A stretch of DNA of 64,000 nt. Source: Rhodamnia argentea (taxonomy: Eukaryota; Streptophyta; Magnoliopsida; Myrtales; Myrtaceae). The stretch is taken from the NCBI RefSeq assembly GCF_020921035.1, contig NC_063154.1, positions 5,394,001 through 5,458,000 of the forward strand. Direction: 5' to 3'. The notes below the pieces were generated by a model. The model worked only from the letters and a program-made list of their open reading frames with translations, ran no database searches and was not told the DNA's origin. Positions 1-20,184 of the stretch are shown piece by piece. Positions within the stretch are counted from its first letter, which is position 1; each line of letters opens with the position of its first letter. The position numbers and the translations under genes were made by a program.

Positions 1-2
1 TC

Positions 3-101
3 CTGGATGCAGGTACTGTTAGCCGGGGTGACATGGTATTTCATAGGTGTAGTGGTCGTAGAGCTAGTAGAGGCCGCTCTAAGCAAAGTGGGATCAGGTA
101 A
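3..101 (+). CDS. Possible C-terminal tail of an unidentified gene (partial)
   Basis: An open frame runs from the left edge to a TAA at 99-101. It encodes about 32 residues ending in a basic, serine/arginine-rich stretch (RRASRGRSKQSGIR). The composition looks like the C-terminus of a nuclear or RNA-binding protein, but I do not recognise the family. The sequence at the end of the frame (CAG followed by GTAAAG) would also make a good splice donor, so this could be an internal exon. Another frame is open over the same stretch. Convergence with the Dim1 gene would leave about 1 kb for both 3' ends. Low confidence. Confidence 0.25.
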   Translation: MDAGTVSRGDMVFHRCSGRRASRGRSKQSGIR

Positions 102-1088
102 AGAACAAAAGAAAGTGTGAATCGCCATTGTATGGTTAGAAGATACTCCAAAGAAGTTATAGTTACGTAGGACAAATTTAGTTAAAACCCCGCCGAGTCG
201 GAGGAATATCTTGATACAGATGCTCTGTGCAATCATTGAATTGCCTATAATAGACGATTAATGCCATGAATGTTTTCCATAATTTCGCTGCTAACGTTTT
301 GAACTTCATAGCATCGTCCCAACAGAAGTGGCAACGAAACATGCAGGGTGGGCGGGACGGGACCTGATGGTTGTATTCTATTTCTACCCGCGCAGTTTTC
401 TGACATCGAGGCTTCAGCCTTTTGTCACGACCAAAACTGATTACAGATTTGGCTTGCTGGAATCTCCGCCATTATAAATCGTTGAACTATATTAAAGATA
501 AGGTTTCCGCCATGTTAATTCAGCTTCGCTTCGCGTTTTCTTATTGTAAACATCTGGGCACGAGAGAACTTGCCTCTACCCTGGCTATTGAATTTGGCAA
601 GAGCGGCTTCTCCCATCTAAATGATACAGGAAAAACAGTCTGACCAGAAGTAAACTATTATCGCACCGACCGACAAACTCTACCTTGGCGTCAATATTCT
701 AAATATCATGTCATGCAACAAACTTGATCTACCTTTTCAAGATTTCGCAATGCACTAATGATCTCATGGCCGTTCTTGGCTGAACTTGGCCACGTCTTTT
801 CAAAACTCTAGGAGTTGTCCCTTCTTGCTCTCATTGATTCAATAACGTCATTCGTACACAAAAGGAACATCATATCAGCTGCACAACACAACAATGGAGC
901 AATTTATAACTCTTATCACACTAGAAACCAATTCGCTGTACCGAGTCAGAAAAGCTCCATGCAGACAAGTTCGTATGGAGTCGTTTACTGAATGACAGTT
1001 TAGCCACAGCCAAATTGAGGAGACAATGGTCGCAAAGGGGTTTCTGAAGACTTACATGCACCCAATAACTACAGTTTGGCACAGAGAA
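102..1088. other. Intergenic stretch, no supportable gene
   Basis: About 1 kb between the possible left-edge gene tail and the Dim1 stop codon. It should hold the 3' UTRs of both. A 73-residue plus-strand frame at 422-643 has no recognisable domain and looks like chance. Confidence 0.5.
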
Positions 1089-2880
1089 TTAATAGCGGTA
1101 CTTAGTGGAGTAGTCCTTGGGAGCAATGACCAGACCACGACCCTTTCTAGCACCCCGATATACTGTCTCGACAATATCGATAAATTCCTGCTTATCCTTG
1201 AGAGCCCAATTGATCTTGTTATTGTTTCCAGTTCCGAGATCTATCATGATGTGCTTGTTCCTGAAGAAGAACATGACTGTGGACGGGTCATAAAGCTCAT
1301 ACATGGTGTTGAAATCAGGCACCTCGGTTATGTCCACAAGGTATATGACAGCAAAGTTCTTTATGGTCTCCGCAACTGATGCCAGCACTTCATCCATCTG
1401 CAAAAGCCAAATATATACAAATTATTACCCAGAAGAAGGCCATCAGTACTAGAAATCTATAGAAATGAAATTGACAATGACATGACACCTCACGATCCAT
1501 ATGGGAAGCAAAGGCATAATCAGCATAGAAATGTCGTTTTTTTCCTTGAACTTAGGTAAAATGATTAACGGAGATGTTTAAGGCCAAAAGCTAGGTATCC
1601 TTCCCAAGATGCACATTGGTTCATACCATTGACGTAGCTAGACGACAATCACAAGTACCATATAGATCCAGTGGCTACACAGAGCATTTAAACACTCGCC
1701 CACCAGAATTAATTGTTTCGGCATGCTGCAAGATCGGTTCTTGAGAATTTAAGAAACAAAAAGCTTGTATTCCTGATGATTTGGCCTTGAGAACTTTCTC
1801 ACCATCCCCAGGTAAAACCAAAGTGACGGTCAACAAAAAGAAAGTAGTGAGATCGGTTACAGCTTACAACTAAAGCAGAAAGCAACTAAATGTGTATTCT
1901 CCCACCATCCCCAGATAAAACCCAATGCGATGGTCAACAAAAAGAATGTAGTGAGATTGGTTACTGCTTGCAACTAAAGCAGTAAGCAACTAAAAGTGTA
2001 TGCCACCATATTCGTCACAAAATCAAGACAAAATGAAAGAGCTTAGGTCACAAGTATTTTTTTTTATACTAGAAGACGAGTGCATTCATTGATAGACATG
2101 CTTGGTCACAAATGAAGCCTTGGTACAGATTGATGAAAAGCCAAAAGTCATAGCATCGAGACAACAGAGCTTCTTAACTTCAATAGTAAACTACCCCAAA
2201 GAAAACCACTGATTGATCAATTCCCTCACGAGACCAACGACGAGAGGCATCAGCAACTTTGTTTCAAACTCTGGGAACCAAAGCAAAATGCCAAGAGGGG
2301 TTTCTCCAGATCACACCACAACCAAAGAACGAAGAAGAATCTTCAAGTAAAACCATCTAAACCACTAGAAGAAGAACAGAGAGGGCTCCCAACAACGCTC
2401 GATGCGTTTCTCGTATTGATCCAAGATTCTCATAAACCTAATCCATTTTATTGATAGCATGATCTGAGAAGAATCAGCACCGATCGAAGCAAGCAAAAGA
2501 AAGTCAAACCGAGCTCTAATCAGCTCCGGAGGACAAATTCCCAAGCTAAGCTCACAAATAGCACGACCAAGACAACGAAACGGAAAACCATCAGGCTAAC
2601 ACACACATATTCACAGCGGCGTCTAAGAGCAGTGGTTCTAGATTCTCAAAAACCTAAAATCCGCAGCCAAACTAATGCCATACGAGCCCAGAACCCCCAA
2701 ATGGAGTGGAACCTAGCCATCGCAAATGAAAGAGAGAGAAAGTCGAGAGCGCGGGAGAACCTGCATGCAGGTCTCGTCCCAATCATGGCCGAAGCGGATG
2801 ACGACGAGCCGCTCTTCCTCGGCCAGGATGGCCTGGTCGACGGCCCATCCGGAGTGCAAGTGGGGCAGCAGATACGACAT
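1089..2880 (-). CDS. YLS8: U5 snRNP thioredoxin-like protein Dim1/YLS8 (TXNL4A, Dib1 homologue)
   Basis: Core spliceosome component of the U4/U6.U5 tri-snRNP, acting in the nucleus in pre-mRNA splicing. The two coding exons are 2761-2880 (40 codons, from the ATG at 2880) and 1089-1397 (102 codons plus stop). They join in phase 0 to give 142 residues, the family length, and the product looks essentially identical to the Arabidopsis protein I remember. Motifs include MSYLLPHLHSGWAVDQ, VVIRFGHDWDETCMQ, AVIYLVDITEVPDF, VMFFFRNKHIMIDLG and the C-terminal PKDYSTKYRY. The fold is thioredoxin-like without a redox CxxC pair. The donor after this first exon reads CAG/GTTCTC, a weak match to consensus. 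A second first exon with a better donor lies upstream at 3616-3735, so the gene may use alternative starts. A long plus-strand frame over exon 2 is an antisense shadow. Confidence 0.95.
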
Positions 2881-3615
2881 GGTTCGACCCGATCAATCAC
2901 ACGATTGGATCGCGCTTCGCTCGCTCCCTTTTTCCGAGCCCTAGCGAAGGGATGAAGCGACGAACTTGAAGACGAGCGTCTGAAGAATGCGTCGCTCGCG
3001 ACAGGGATGCCCGTGTTTCTTTATCGCCAGGGTGGGTCTTTCCTCGCGCGTGGGACACGCGCTTCGCACTGCGTTTGAGGCGGTCTGGTGCGTGATTATT
3101 TACCCTAATTTTCTATTTTATTTTCTCCACCAGTCAGTCACCCCTTATTCCGAAATATGACGCAATATATCCGTCGTATTTACACGGGAAAATTCAGGAA
3201 GCACAATATATATTTAAAAAAAAAAACCCGAAGGCGATGAAGAATAGCAAAACATGCGAATTAACATGAGCTCTGCTGCTGCTGCTGATGTTCCTGCTGC
3301 AAAGAAAATGGTGAAGACGATTCAACATTGGCACGAAAAACCTACCTCCTCTCGATTCCTAATCAGAAAAGCTTCGTCCTCGCAGCCCGCATCACCGAAA
3401 TCTAAGGAACGGAAACACAAGTAGGGAATTTGACTCGATTAAGATCACGAAGATCCGATGAACAGATGTGAGCAAATTTAAATGGACGCTATCAACATAG
3501 CAGACGAGGACGGCAGTACTACGAAATTAGATTAGAGCGCATTGCACGCGGGGTCGATCGCGCAGGGATTGTGATTTCGCGATGGGGAGAGAGCGCGGGT
3601 TTTTTCGTCACCTAC

Positions 3616-3735
3616 CTGCATGCAGGTGTCGTCCCAGTCGTGGCCGAAGCGGATGACGACGACGCGCTCTTCCTCGGCGAGGATGGCCTGATCCACCGCC
3701 CATCCCGAGTGCAGGTGCGGCAACAAGTACGACAT
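3616..3735 (-). CDS. YLS8: Duplicated alternative first coding exon of Dim1/YLS8
   Basis: This 120-nt exon is a second intact copy of the Dim1 first exon, 855 bp upstream of the other. It begins with ATG and ends in the same TGCATGCAG, followed by the strong donor GTAGGTGA. Spliced to 1397 it also gives a 142-residue protein in phase 0. The two versions differ only at two conservative positions: here EERVVV and WDDTC, against EERLVV and WDETC in the proximal copy. DNA differences between the copies are nearly all at third positions, which suggests both have been under protein selection. Flanking similarity is limited to a short GAGAGCGCGGG stretch on the intron side. It could be an alternative promoter/first exon, or the start of a tandem copy that lost its other exon. 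Confidence 0.8.
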
Positions 3736-3894
3736 CTCTCTCTCGGTCTCGCTCCGGCGGGCAAATGTGAGTGTGCGCGCGCGCGTGGCGATTGGTGAAT
3801 ACGGAGAATACAATCTTCGAAGAAGAAGAAGAAGACGGGTCGAGAAGGCACCAGAGCTTGATTGGGCAATGGTGTTGCCCCACGTCATCTTTTG

Positions 3895-4275
3895 TTTATG
3901 AAATCTATTTTTGATCAGAAATAAATTTTCCTATTTTAATTTCTATATGAGTTTTTGAGCAGATAAATACATTTGATAATAACACAAAAATTTTATTTTT
4001 AGAACAGAAATTTATTTTGACAGCATAAAATTTTTAGGTTTGTCAACGATCAGCAAATTCAGGGGACAACGGACCGGCGACCGGCGATTGGGATGTGAGA
4101 GAAAGAAAGTGAGCAATAAGAAGAATTCTTATTTCTTATACTTGTTCTAGAAACAAAGAAGCTAAAAATTTTAACTTATTATTTCTGTTCCAAATCTATT
4201 TTTTGTTCTAAAATAGAAAAATAAAATTACGTTATCAAACAGATTTGGAACAAAAATAGAAAAACATAATGGTTA
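3895..4275. repeat. AT-rich inverted-repeat element (MITE-like)
   Basis: The two ends carry related inverted sequences built on 'gaacagaaatttatttt' and 'ttatcaaacagatttgg', with tracts such as 'gatcagaaataaatttt' mirrored by 'aaatagaaaaataaaatt'. No coding capacity. A related motif set recurs at 20430-20680, suggesting a small family of non-autonomous DNA elements. I found no clean target-site duplication, so the ends are approximate. Confidence 0.4.
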
Positions 4276-4307
4276 TTATTTGCGCTCTTTATAGAGTGAT
4301 TGTTTGA

Positions 4308-4816
4308 GAGAAAATGATTTTCAAGAATTGATTTTCGAATTTTCACTACTTTAATTTATCGAAAATGACTTAACCAATGAAATTTTTTTTTCAATTAATG
4401 AAAAATTCATGCATAAAATAAGCTCATCTCGAATTTTTTAATGTTTTATTTTATATTCTATATTTTCCTTCTTCATTCACCAATCACCGAGTCTCGGCGA
4501 TGGTCGGCCATCGGCCATATGAGATCGAGCCTCGATATATACTGCACGCTTGAGCTCGCCAAATCCCAGTAAGGTTGAATCTCATGTGGCTGGTCGTCGA
4601 CGGTCGTCAAGACCCGGAGATTGACGAAGGAAGAGAAAAAGAAAAAATATATCGAATATAAAAATAAAAATTATACAAAAATTTGATTTTTTTTTTTTTT
4701 GCTTCGGATTAAATTATGAGATTGAAATCATTTTTTAAATGAGAACCAGATACCAAATTTTTAGGTTATAAAAGGAAAATTTTCCATTTTTCATGAAGTT
4801 TTCCCTCAAGCAACGT
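4308..4816. repeat. AT-rich element with imperfect terminal inverted repeats
   Basis: The left end (TTTGAGAGAAAATGATTTTC) and the reverse complement of the right end (CTTGAGGGAAAACTTCATG) resemble each other. Between them lies a GC-richer core near 4490-4620 flanked by AT-rich arms, a layout shared with other presumed Mutator-like MITEs in this window. No open frame of note. Confidence 0.4.
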
Positions 4817-4829
4817 AATTTAGGCTGTT

Positions 4830-6420
4830 TTTTGTCGTCATGATAAAAATGAGATATAATATCCTATGTTTGGTAGCTATTCAAGATAGGATAAATGGGA
4901 TAGATATGAGATTTGTAGCCTGGATATAGAAAATCCTAAGGGAAAGGGTAAGATAGACCAAATAGGATTTCTCATGAAAGCATATATGAGAAGAATCCGG
5001 TTTTTTTTTCACAACCATTACTTCTTCTCCGTGCCGAGTCGCCTTTTCGGCGGCAGCAACCGTCAAGTGTGGTCGCCCCTCCTGCTGTGCTAGGATGGGG
5101 TCTCCGCCACAAAGCCGAGTATCTCCAAAACCTCATTCTTTAATATATTATTTGGCGTCATGTCCATCGTTCTTTAATCGCTCGAACCTTTTCAACATTC
5201 AAAAGGGGTTTCGATATGTTACGAAGAACTAGAGGTTGATCATTGATTTTCAAAGTAGCTCTTGGACAATCTGCATGAGTGCGTCTTCAACTTGTGAAAA
5301 GAGGCTGAACAATTTCATTTTTCTTTACTCACTCGACAAGACAACAAGCAAGGCCCGCATGTCATTCTCAAATAATTGATCCCAAATAAAGACTCATTAT
5401 GTGAGGTTTGTTTGGTCGATGTCGTGTCCATATTCGGATGTCACAAACCTCTACTCAACAATAACCCACTCGGAAGAACTCACCACAGAATACTTCTGAA
5501 GTTTCAGCAAAACATAGTCGATATCAACTGTGTCTTGCCTATGCTTATTCGACATTATATCCGCAATTCACCAAACAGTAGATATGATATAACGAAATGC
5601 TTGATTTTTTTTTATTATATCCTATTCGATCCTATTGTGATAAGAAATCCGAACGATCAAACGCAGTCTTAGACTTTACTATTTGAGCTCTAGATTAGTT
5701 GCTTAATGCGAGGAAGTGCCCAAGCAATGGCGCACCTTTACAAAACCGAAATCTATTCGAGCTCTAGCATATGGTTGGCCACGAGAGGGTGGCATGGTGG
5801 GATACTATTCCGGCTTCCCCCCTACTGGACGACTTGCATCCAGCTTGCTGGCTGGATCCAATGGCCAACCGTGCCGCCCTGCCCCCACAACTGGCCACCA
5901 TTGCCTCCGCCCTCAACCACCACCTCAAGAGTTCTGCGGGTCTCCATCACCAGCACCTTTGCTCTCGGTCGACGCCGTCCCCTTCAACTTCCACCTGCGC
6001 CTTCGCGATTCGCCCTCGGCACCTTCGCCCTCGGAGGCCAAGCATTGGGTCACTGGCGACGCTTCATGGCTCGGACGAAGGCGGGGCCGTGTCAACGAGG
6101 TGAGTCAGGGTAGGCAATGGCAAACGGCGGCCTCGCGGTGGTGAGATGACATTATACGCGTAGACCACCACCAAACCGGTAACAAAATACTTGATCGTAA
6201 TCTCGGATCCAGTATGATTAGAGCCGTAATGTGATTTGAATGGCCAATAATGAAATTATTTAGAAGCAATAATTGACCACCTCTACTCGGAGGATAAACT
6301 AGTAATTTTCTACTCCCCAAAAGAACATCCTGGAACGTCAACGACGGATTCTTCTCTCCCCACTGAGTTCAGAACAAAACATTCTGAAAGCCTTCGCTCC
6401 TCTCGTTCCACCCCCAAAAA
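4830..6420. other. Intergenic stretch, repeats and no recognised gene
   Basis: The left part (about 4845-5680) has mirrored motifs such as 'gatataatatcctat' near its start and 'attatatcctattcgatcc' near its end, consistent with a degraded inverted-repeat element. The stretch 5706-6144 is GC-rich and open in three plus-strand frames at once. The translations are proline-, serine- and arginine-rich without a recognisable domain, so I read it as compositional openness, not a gene. The last 80 bases before 6427 should be the nicotinamidase 5' UTR. Confidence 0.4.
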
Positions 6421-6426
6421 AAATCA

Positions 6427-7035
6427 ATGGCCGCCATGTCTCCCAAACCTTCGTCGTCCTACACCAAATACAACATCCGTACCCGGAAGCCCGACCCGAA
6501 ATCCTGCGCTCTCCTCGTGATCGACGTCCAGAACCACTTCGCCTCCATGGCCGATCCGATCCTCCCCGCGCTCAACGCCACCATCCGCCTCTGCCGGCGC
6601 GCCTCCATCCCCGTCCTCTTCACCCGTCACTGCGACGCCGACCCGTCCGACTACCCCATGCTCGCCGAGTGGTGGGGCCACGACACCCGCATCCTCGACG
6701 GCACCGGCGAGGCGGAGCTGATGCCGGGGCTCGACCGGGGGGACGGCGACCCGGTGGTGAGGAAGCACACCTACAGCGCGTTCCGGGGCACGGGACTGGA
6801 GGAGCGACTGGCGGGGATGGGCGTGAGGGAGGTGATCGTGGCCGGGGTCATGACGAACCTTTGCTGCGAGACGACGGCGCGCGAGGCGTTCGTGAGGGGG
6901 TTCAGGGTGTTCTTCTCGACCGACGCGACGGCGACGTCGAGCGAGGAGCTGCACGAGGCGACGCTCAAGAACATGGCCTATGGGTTCGCTTACCTCGTGG
7001 ACTGTGAATCCCTCGAAAAGGGGCTACTTGGGTAA
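6427..7035 (+). CDS. NIC2: Nicotinamidase, isochorismatase-like hydrolase family
   Basis: Predicted to hydrolyse nicotinamide to nicotinate and ammonia in the plant NAD salvage pathway. Single exon, 202 residues, the usual length for the NIC2/NIC3 type. The catalytic triad can be read: Asp33 in [10 protein letters not shown], Lys113 in [10 protein letters not shown], and Cys146 in the [16 protein letters not shown] segment, where the Val-Met pair occupies the family's cis-peptide position. The ATG at 6427 precedes a short Ser/Pro-rich leader; a second in-frame Met is at codon 4. The C-terminus is [10 protein letters not shown]. Coding GC content is high, as in the CYP86B1 and membrane-protein genes further right. 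The last 17 codons including the stop form unit 1 of a five-unit minisatellite, so the 3' UTR contains four further copies of the C-terminal coding sequence. The gene is convergent with the SCPL gene, stops 621 bp apart. Confidence 0.9.
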
Positions 7036-7484
7036 ACTTAGCTTTTCCTTTCTTCTCTGTTGTTGTTGTTCTTCTTCTTCTTCTTCGCTTACCTTGTGGA
7101 CTGTGAATCCCTCGAAAAGGGGCTACTTGGGTAAACTTAGCTTTTCCTTTCTTCTCTGTTGTTGTTGTTGTTCTTCTTCTTCTTCTTCGCTTACCTTGTG
7201 GACTGTGAATCCCTCGAAAAGGGGCTACTTGGGTAAACTTAGCTTTTCCTTTCTTCTCTGTTGTTGTTCTTCTTCTTCTTCTTCTTCGCTTACCTTGTGG
7301 ACTGTGAATCCCTCGAAAAGGGGCTACTTGGGTAAACTTAGCTTTTCCTTTCTTCTCTGTTGTTGTTGTTGTTCTTCTTCTTCTTCGCTTACCTTGTGGA
7401 CTGTGAATCCCTCGAAAAGGGGCTACTTGGGTAAACTTAGCTTTTCCTTTCTTCTCTGTTCTTCTTTTTCTTCTTCCTCTGGTG
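6985..7484. repeat. Five-unit minisatellite (99/102/99/99/~100 bp) spanning the nicotinamidase stop codon
   Basis: Units start at 6985, 7084, 7186, 7285 and 7384. Each carries the end of the coding region (TTCGCTTACC... through GGGCTACTTGGGTAAAC), about 35 bp of 3' flank, and a (GTT)n(CTT)n tract. Unit lengths differ only by whole triplets in that tract. Unit 1 has ACCTCGTGG where units 2-5 all have ACCTTGTGG, so the downstream copies were probably amplified from one already-diverged copy. Because unit lengths are multiples of three, long frames run across the whole array on both strands (6980-7525 plus, 6965-7501 minus) with 33-residue periodic translations. These look like by-products of the repeat. 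Confidence 0.95.
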
Positions 7485-7656
7485 AATATCTTGAATTGCA
7501 AGAGAAGATGTGTGTAAACGAATGATGGAGAATCGGATTATGTATCTTGGAAATGTCAACGGTTTCGCATTGGCTTTGACTTATCGATTGTTCAGCTTAT
7601 CAAATCAAAGCCCTTACAAACACAGAACCAATGCGCGAACTTTTCGATCAGCTCGC

Positions 7657-10855
<3,199 letters not shown>

Positions 10856-10904
10856 TTCAGATTTGCTGAACGCGAAAATATGAGATAGAGAGAGAGAGAG
10901 AGAG

Positions 10905-12110
10905 GTATGCTCCAGTTTTCTTATGGAGGAGGGTCACTGGAAATTGCCGAATGTGGGTCATTTGTCGTGTTGTGACTCCCCTTCGAAGTGCAACTTTTTC
11001 CATGGGGACCTTGTCGGTTTGCTCTGATGATGAAATTTGAAATTTGGAGTTTTTGCAAAGCACGCGCTGATTTGATTTCTCCGAGGTCTCTCCTCCGATT
11101 GGTGAATTGTTCTTTTGCACATATCCCCGATGCAACTCAGCTTTGTTCGGTCTCAAAGTCTTTAATGATAGGCCTAATCCCATGTCGCTCCACATTGGGT
11201 TTTTCCCTGTATACAAACCCCTAATTTGGACGAATCAAAGCAAAATTTTCCACATTTTTCGTACCCTTTAATTCGGAAGGAGAGCACAATTCAGCCCGCG
11301 CGCAGAGCCGTCGTTGGCGCTGTCGAGCATGAAGCCGGCCCGCTAAGGCGGCCCCTCGTTCGGGGGAACATAGAACTCGATGAGGCCGAGCAGATAGACG
11401 GTGAAAACCAAGCTCGTAAGGGTGTACCATTGGGGTCGAAGAAGTCAACAACCTAGGGAGGCAAGGTCGAGGTCACTGGAGTCGAGGAAGAGGTTTTGAT
11501 CCAGCCGTGGCGGGTCATAGCCAAATCCATGGAGCTTGCAGATATGAGAGAAGGCCAGGCGAGGGAGAAGAAACGGTGACTAGTGATTTGTAAATAGCGA
11601 CAGAGAGAAAGATTTTTTCCGTTTTTTAGAAAGAGATTCAATTTGAAGAGAATGCGACGTAGTCATTGAGGTTTAAAGAGGAAACCTGTTGAACTTATTT
11701 TTTATAATAAAAAAAAAAGGACAGTGCATGAAAGTAGATGTGTCAAATGGGTGGATCGAGTTGAGTTTGGATTTGGTCAATTATGATCCGATTCATATTG
11801 ACCCATTTTCATACCGTGCAAATTTTATGATCCATATCCGATCGGACCTCGTATTGTTTAAATTTTTATATATTTGACCAAATAATGAAATAATTGTTTC
11901 ATAAAATTAAAAAATGTAAAAATTATTTCGCCGACCGTTGCCGCCTTCGCCAACGTGGCCCGCCCACCGCCACAATATTTTATGTGCTTTCATTTTCATG
12001 CTTCTATACCATTTCTCTTCCCGAGTGCATCCGACACAAAATAAAGCACTTTTCGCGCTTTAGACTGCTTCGATCTTACTGATGAATAAGGGCATCGTGT
12101 CATCGAAAGT
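10905..12110. other. Intergenic stretch with unassigned minus-strand open frames
   Basis: Upstream side of the SCPL gene. Several short minus-strand frames between 11226 and 11650 read as plausible protein: one includes VVDFFDPNGTPLRAWF, an overlapping frame includes a hydrophobic WYTLTSLVFTVYLLGLIEFY stretch. None runs far and I do not recognise a family. From 11690 to 11880 a sequence rich in 'gggtggatcgagttgag' and 'tgacccattttcata' resembles repeat DNA also seen near 13910-14070 and 27330-27720. Confidence 0.35.
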
Positions 12111-18208: not shown

Positions 18209-18260
18209 CTCGTGACCATCATTCACAGCTTCAGTTCACCATAACTCAAACGACCTATTC

Positions 18261-20184
18261 ATGCACCACCACCACCACTGTAGTCCCCCTCACTCCAACG
18301 CCATGAACCCCAGCAACCACACCTCTGCCTCCTCACCTTCCGCTGCCGCCGGGAGCTCTTTCTACCGTCGGCTCCACTTCGTCGAGCACGTCCAGATCCT
18401 TGAGCTCCTCCTCGCGCTCTTCGTGTTCATCGCCATCCATGCCATCCGGCAGGGGAAGCGCCACGGGCTGGCGGTGTGGCCGGTCCTCGGGATGGCGCCC
18501 TCCCTGGTCGCGGGGCTCCGGGGCAACATGTACGAGTACATCTCCGGCGTGGTGTGCCGCCAGAACGGGACGTTCTGGTTCAGGGGCCCCTGGCTCACCA
18601 GCCTCAACTGCGTGGTCACCGCGGACCCCCGCAACCTCGAGCACCTCCTCAAGACCCGGTTCTCCAACTTCCCCAAGGGCCCCTACTTCCGCGACACCGT
18701 CCGAGACCTCCTCGGCGACGGCATATTCAATGCAGACGACGACACGTGGCAGCGCCAGAGGAAGACGGCCAGCATCGAGTTCCACTCCGCCAAGTTCCGG
18801 AGACTCACCACCGAGTCCCTCCTCGAGCTCGTCCACGCCCGGCTCCTCCCCGTTCTCGAGGAGAGCCTCCGCGCCTCCGCCGCCGTCGACCTGCAGGACG
18901 TGCTTCTCCGGCTGACCTTCGACAACGTGTGCATGATCGCCTTCGGGGTCGACCCGGGTTGCCTCCGCCCGGGGCTCCCCGAGATCCCCTTCGCGAGGGC
19001 GTTCGAGGACGCGACAGAGGCGACGGTGCTCCGCTTCGTGACGCCGACGTGCGTGTGGAAGCTCATGAGGTTCCTCGGCATTGGCCCCGAGAGGACGCTG
19101 CGGAAGTCGATCGAGGGCGTCGACGAGTTCGCGAACGAGGTGATCCGGACCCGAAAGAAGGAGCTCGCCGCGGACGACGGGTGCCAGAGGTCGGACATAC
19201 TGACGGTGTTCGCGAGGCTGAGGGACGAGGAAGGGAGGCCGTTCTCGGACAAGTTCCTGCGGGACATATGCGTGAACTTCATACTCGCCGGGAGGGACAC
19301 GTCGTCGGTGGCGCTGAGCTGGTTCTTCTGGCTGCTCCACAACAACCCGGACGTGGAGGAGAGGATCGTGGCCGAGCTCTGCAAGGTGGTGAGCGAACGA
19401 GGAGGAGCGAGCGACGGCGAAGAGTTGGTGTTCAAGCCGGAGGAGATAAAGAAGATGGACTATTTGCAGGCGGCCATTACCGAGGCTCTCAGGCTCTACC
19501 CCTCCGTCCCCGTCGATCACAAAGAGGTAAAAACCACTCCCTCATTCTTCTGCAGGGAACCAGAAGATGCTCCAATTTCCAAAATCTTGGTAATGCGAAA
19601 AATTATTAATTTTTTCATTTATTTCGAGTGTGTTTATTTATTGGGTTATGGATTAATTTCTCGTTCACCTAACTGCTTGGGAATGGAGGGTTGACCAGGT
19701 CAATCAATGCCATGAAGACTTCTTTTGACTTCAGTTATTATATTTGTGTCGACTCTTTTTTTTTTTTTTAAAGGTTATCGAAGACGACGTGTTCCCGGAT
19801 GGGACGGTGCTCAAGAAAGGCACGAAGGTGCTCTACGTGATCTACGCGATGGGGAGGATGGAGGCGATCTGGGGGAAGGACTGCCGCGAGTTCAGGCCGG
19901 AGCGGTGGCTGCGGGACGACGGCCGGTTCGCAAGCGAGTCGGCCTACAAGTTCACCGCGTTCAATGGCGGGCCCCGGCTGTGCCTCGGCAAGGACTTCGC
20001 CTACTACCAGATGAAGTTCGCCGCCGCCTCCATCCTGTACCGGTACCGCGTCCGGGTGGCCGAGGGCCACCCCGTGGCCCCGAAGCTGGCGCTCACGATG
20101 TACATGAGGCACGGGCTCAAGGTCAACCTCCTCCGGCGCGACGAGGCCGAGCGCCGGAAGTGCCTCGCCAAGTACTACGGTTGA
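18261..20184 (+). CDS. CYP86B1: Cytochrome P450 CYP86B1-type, very-long-chain fatty acid omega-hydroxylase
   Basis: ER-anchored monooxygenase; CYP86B1 in Arabidopsis hydroxylates C22-C24 fatty acids for root and seed-coat suberin. Two exons, 18261-19526 and 19774-20184, joined in phase 0. The product has 558 residues from the first ATG, or 544 from the in-frame ATG at 18303. The earlier start adds a His-rich leader (MHHHHHCSPPHSNA). A membrane anchor follows (LELLLALFVFIAIHAI). Counting from 18303: I-helix AGRDTSS at about residue 329, ExxR as E394-R397, the FRPERW segment, and the heme-binding Cys478 in FNGGPRLCLGKDFAYYQ. Similarity to Arabidopsis CYP86B1 as I remember it is high throughout (LLGDGIFNADD, TASIEFHSAKF, DNVCMIAFGVDPGCL). 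The exon 2 acceptor follows a long T run. Exons are very GC-rich, which creates long meaningless antisense frames. Confidence 0.95.

Follow-up and report, generated by a model that had tools for sequence, protein, structure and literature searches.

In a 64,000-nucleotide stretch of the Rhodamnia argentea genome (C5:5394001-5458000 in an assembly of 347 Mb and 74 contigs; hereafter the window), the minus strand carries a gene for the splicing factor Dim1 that appears to have two alternative coding starts. The reading we favour, with moderate confidence, is that of a single intact gene with two ancient, homologous and mutually exclusive first coding exons served by two promoters, i.e. first exons of type I. 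A sequence-only reading of the window had proposed two 120-nucleotide exons running from ATG to CAG and encoding 40 residues each, at 2761-2880 (called proximal here) and 3616-3735 (distal), and both were found there. As it had also stated, the encoded residues are the same except for two changes (L25V and E36D, proximal to distal), and most differences are synonymous (13 of the 15 found in 120 nt). Either exon, when joined in phase 0 to the one proposed second exon (1397-1089), gives a reading frame of 142 amino acids. Among the direct-repeat families of window 1-8000 the pair ranks second in size (122 nt, 88%), which argues that it is more than a chance resemblance.

Both 142-residue products match the Pfam DIM1 profile (PF02966, cut-off 27 bits) over positions 1-133 of 133, with 230.8 and 230.4 bits, and human U5-15kD matches the proximal form with an E-value of 8.5e-86. 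By homology, the gene product would be Dim1 (U5-15kD, YLS8-type), a member of the U5 small nuclear ribonucleoprotein (snRNP) and the tri-snRNP. The solved human Dim1 has V25 and P36, and a eukaryotic sequence inside a record of a bacterial metagenome-assembled genome (MAG) has V25 and D36, so that the distal V25 and D36 are ordinary Dim1 residues. The proximal protein, which the sequence-only reading called canonical, is presumably the usual form in plants; the human and MAG-record residues speak against a wider use of that label. A pattern search of genome contigs gave two relatives among 114 matches. Both records bear titles of bacterial MAGs; we read these as eukaryotic contamination because their reading frames are interrupted as though by introns. 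The pattern search of viral contigs gave five matches and no relative.

The window gene is the only intact Dim1, with the only intact exon 2, found in the assembly. An exon-2 search of all 347 Mb (E ≤ 0.001, five candidates scored) returned a single further match, a partial one on C2 that is truncated on either side and carries a frameshift. It lies in an 80% copy of window 1230-1810 (L052:4536-5074, equal to C2:18669135-18669673) that adjoins repeated DNA and holds the 3′ portion of the Dim1 intron with the first part of exon 2. This is another fragment copy of the gene, separate from the pieces on C9 and C10 described below; parts of the gene have thus been copied at least twice. No exon-2 relic was detected between the two first exons or in window 3736-12000 (best tblastn E 2.0; best blastn match 12 nt, E 0.26). 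A hidden second exon 2 had been named beforehand as a possible refutation, and the cut C2 piece is all that was found of one; two whole Dim1 genes, or a second exon 2, find no support in the assembly search or in the search for a nearby relic. Searching the assembly with PF02966 gave seven matches (13 candidates scored), two of which are exon-like and lie at C1:5519752-5520158. They are probably a distant Dim1-like paralogue, presumably of the TXNL4B/DLP type.

The exon pair is, on sequence divergence, an old duplication. Nonsynonymous divergence (dN) between the exons is about 0.02, and synonymous divergence (dS) is 0.72-0.84 by two counting methods and 1.46 by maximum likelihood (ML); this combination, without clear similarity of the flanks, is the basis of the age estimate. 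At plant substitution rates it corresponds to tens of millions of years or more. In three of four flank alignments between proximal and distal copies, 57, 150 and 23 of 200 shuffles reached the observed score, and for 400 nt of 5′ flank, the remaining comparison, the result was marginal, with 4 of 200. Under five neutral models, two or fewer nonsynonymous changes among 15 would arise with P between 2e-7 and 5e-5. By itself this test cannot show constraint on both exons, as one of them could carry the signal.

Transposed copies of the distal exon provide part of the answer to whether both are constrained. A protein search of the assembly for exon 1 gave five matches, namely the window pair, a C9 copy with 85% identity, and C10a and C10b on C10 with 69-70%. 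C9 and C10a match window 3453-3828 with gaps and C10b matches 3453-3716; the match takes in the flanks of the distal exon, and the copies derive from that exon. D36 is common to all of them, as is V25 except in C10b, which has I25. The C9 copy sits in a 978-bp element (L008:4505-5482; C9 about 17.3075-17.3085 Mb) with TAGAGGTGTCAA-type ends, inverted terminal repeats and an exact 8-bp target-site duplication (CGAATAAC on both sides). C10a sits in an element at L009:3630-4819 (C10 about 23.7206-23.7218 Mb), likewise with inverted terminal repeats and with an 8-bp duplication that has one mismatch (ATCCGGGC/ATACGGGC); no element end pair was found for C10b in L010. Local duplications surround the copy at the C10 locus (L009/L010/L019).

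The ends of the C9 element, searched without the Dim1 piece, have at least 66 matches elsewhere (best 40 of 876 candidates scored). Of 34 loci, overlapping ones counted, 20 had an end pair and a duplication with no more than one mismatch. After removal of four repeats, the remaining 30 loci gave 11 exact and 16 near-exact duplications, compared with no exact and 0-2 near-exact ones at each of eight shifted control positions; this set still holds at least two overlapping pairs (L010/L022 and L019/L025), both without ends. By these features, the C9 and C10a elements are members of a non-autonomous hAT family with a captured piece of Dim1. They share terminal inverted repeats, the 8-nt duplication and captured gene DNA with Pack-TYPE hAT transposons (PMC8903248), which the C9-end family also resembles in having members with other interiors. 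The likeness is limited to the C9 and C10a copies and excludes the window locus, and the captured piece (5′ flank, first exon and intron start) differs from that comparison.

Using the proximal exon as outgroup, we counted changes since capture (C10b over 102 nt). Nonsynonymous/synonymous changes were 0/1 in the distal exon, 4/6 in C9, 11/7 in C10a and 10/4 in C10b. Without CpG sites the counts were 0/1, 4/4, 8/3 and 6/3, and without any C>T or G>A they were 0/1, 3/0, 6/2 and 4/2, respectively. ML branch lengths of the exon agree, with 0.005 for the distal exon, 0.048 for the transposon stem, 0.048 for C9 beyond that stem and longer values for C10. Differences unique to the distal copy affect 2 of 95 exon positions vs 37 of 213 flank positions (p 6e-5), a contrast that is absent in the three transposed copies (p 0.49, 1.0 and 1.0). 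By these counts, the distal exon has changed little since the transposon copied it. The earlier suggestion that both exons have been selected is favoured by the low dN and by the lack of nonsynonymous change in the distal exon since capture.

The splice sites of the two exons are unequal. Predicted duplexes of the donors with U1 have energies of −12.6 kcal/mol (distal) and −5.6 kcal/mol (proximal) vs −14.0 kcal/mol for the consensus, a crude measure that does not require GT. No AG adjoins the proximal ATG, and an in-frame TGA lies 15 nt upstream of it. Thirty-seven AGs between the exons, those in the first 60 nt set aside, were tried as acceptors; none gives a full-length fusion, and with the nine pyrimidine-rich ones the fused readings stop after 47-68 residues. 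One such AG lies 60 nt before the proximal ATG (window 2941), and another, near window 3297 (CCATTTTCTTTGCAG), would join the distal exon into a 51-residue reading followed by a stop. Retention of the intron brings a stop after 55 residues in the proximal form or 67 in the distal. Because of the missing adjoining AG and the stop at −15, a distal transcript would make Dim1 only by skipping the proximal exon, and neither first exon should work as an internal exon of the other form. The mutual exclusion that had been proposed follows largely from this anatomy; the use of both exons is predicted from their sequence. No ATG lies within 300 nt upstream of the proximal first exon or within 150 nt upstream of the distal one.

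We therefore picture two homologous coding first exons, each with its own putative promoter, that would serve one exon 2. Distal transcripts would use the strong donor and skip the proximal exon, since splicing into that exon leads to a stop, and proximal transcripts would use the weak donor. Both forms would give full 142-residue Dim1 differing at residues 25 and 36; as both are complete and only two residues apart, the most likely role of the pair is to supply one essential protein in different expression settings. At a later time the distal exon and its flanks were captured by a non-autonomous hAT element, which took them to C9 and C10, where the copies decayed. A bolder idea, which we consider rather improbable, is a self-monitoring switch: falling spliceosome capacity would fail the proximal transcripts with their weak donor, while distal ones would still make Dim1. 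The kept proximal intron would then be a 55-residue dead end, and the gene would sense the activity of its own machine.

Several observations weigh against the two-start reading. By the U1-duplex measure, the proximal donor is weaker than those of the decayed copies (−6.1, −7.0 and −7.7 kcal/mol for C9, C10a and C10b), and for this reason the proposal of alternative starts of one gene, favoured by the sequence tests, is only partly supported overall. CpG content fails to separate live from dead copies: the observed/expected ratio is 1.3-1.7 in the first-exon regions, 0.4-0.6 in most of the intron and 0.98 on average in the window, is higher still in some AT-rich 200-nt stretches at 4201-4800, and reaches 1.33 in the decayed C9 exon, so we discarded it as a sign of two live promoters. 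When only columns with C9 present are taken, distal-unique differences number 2 of 95 in the exon vs 15 of 172 in the flank (p 0.037), and those in the flanks include changes on the transposon stem. Furthermore, the transposed copies have part of their history in common and their mutation rate may be higher. Taken by itself, C9 does not look clearly neutral (P 0.008-0.11).

The weak proximal donor would suit a relic of tandem duplication, in which a single first exon is live, the other being the leftover of a lost Dim1 copy, kept intact by chance or occasional gene conversion. Loss of later exons is common in old tandem duplicates. On this view the very weak donor would mark the proximal exon as the more probable remnant, and V25 and D36 would point to the distal one. 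We nevertheless regard such a relic as unlikely: a dS of at least 0.7 is too diverged for recent conversion, a dN of 0.02 is too low for a dead exon, the distal exon has no nonsynonymous change since capture, and no exon-2 relic lies nearby. Alternatively, the distal exon could start another, short or non-coding transcript that ends between the exons, for which pyrimidine-rich AGs such as that at 3297, with its 51-residue reading, are available. This seems improbable to us, since 40 kept Dim1 residues with a phase-0 end would make most sense if joined to exon 2.

The presence of the same stretch within hAT elements on C9 and C10 raises the question of whether the distal exon is no old resident but arrived within a hAT element that had captured it from Dim1. 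We judge this very unlikely. Window 2500-5000 contains no terminal-inverted-repeat core, with up to two mismatches allowed, and no hAT ends surround the distal exon, whereas the transposed copies have element ends; in the exon tree, those copies group on a stem that excludes the distal exon, whose branch is very short. The tree and the missing core speak against a transposon insertion. An assembly artefact is scarcely credible: no point in its support was found, the flanks of the two exons are unrelated, the window contains no N, and diverged copies of the distal exon, its own flanks included, occur on two further contigs. The misassembly that the sequence-only reading had considered as a refutation is disfavoured on the same grounds.

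Comparable arrangements exist. In plants, alternative first exons of type I (PMC2174465) are likewise mutually exclusive and joined to shared downstream exons, and relatively weak 5′ splice sites tend to occur among them; the Dim1 exons differ in being both coding and mutually homologous, in encoding part of a conserved domain, and in being known from sequence. A parallel in coding content comes from DAL19-clade MADS genes of Norway spruce (PMC6243048), where alternative first exons each encode the conserved N-terminal domain, as in Dim1, and differ in expression as shown by RNA. These belong to a regulatory family, and their exons are about 16 kb apart in white spruce vs 855 nt here. Rice OsDim1 (PMC6897961) resembles the window gene in its two exons, 142 residues and Dim1 domain, and differs in that the available text mentions no alternative first exon. 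In literature searches, YLS8 and 'alternative first exon' were not found together, which is not proof of absence, and DIM1 occurred with that term only in two works, titled on honeybee embryos and liver cancer. A search on Dim1 and the spliceosome in plants yielded a single paper, the one on OsDim1. Among the matches listed, 'duplicated first exon' was absent from the literature on alternative first exons or promoters, and no Dim1 title appeared in that on exon duplication.

The coordinates of the gene are collected below. Its intron also contains two tandem copies of ~91 nt (window 1814-2008; 86% alike, 104 nt apart). Elsewhere in the window, six spaced direct repeats of 99-102 nt at 6886-7584 overlap the end of an isochorismatase-domain open reading frame (6388-7035), and a cytochrome P450 reading frame (PF00067) occupies 18216-19694.

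Features of the Dim1 gene in the window, with strand and remarks
Feature	Position	Strand	Remarks
Shared second exon	1089..1397	-	102 codons + stop; acceptor TTTTGCAG just above 1397
Proximal first exon	2761..2880	-	L25, E36; donor CAG/GTTCTC below 2761
Distal first exon	3616..3735	-	V25, D36; donor CAG/GTAGGTGA below 3616
Predicted intron, proximal form	1398..2760	-	from exon and donor/acceptor positions
Predicted intron, distal form	1398-3615	-	from exon and donor/acceptor positions
Presumed proximal promoter + 5′ UTR	2881..3250	-	putative promoter role; in-frame TGA 15 nt before ATG
Presumed distal promoter + 5′ UTR	3736..4135	-	putative promoter role
Distal-derived stretch (intron start, exon, 5′ flank)	3453..3828	-	diverged copies on C9, C10; C10b only to 3716

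Type I first exons and alternative first exons that encode a domain are already known; what is unusual here is the gene, together with its internal decay control. The hAT-borne copies provide that control, so that no second species is needed to judge constraint on the distal exon. For Dim1, a small and highly conserved protein of the U5 snRNP, the one intact gene seems to have kept two coding starts in the long term. If both starts are used, the locus would be a clean natural setting in which to ask what a housekeeping splicing factor gains from two promoters and two unequal donors.
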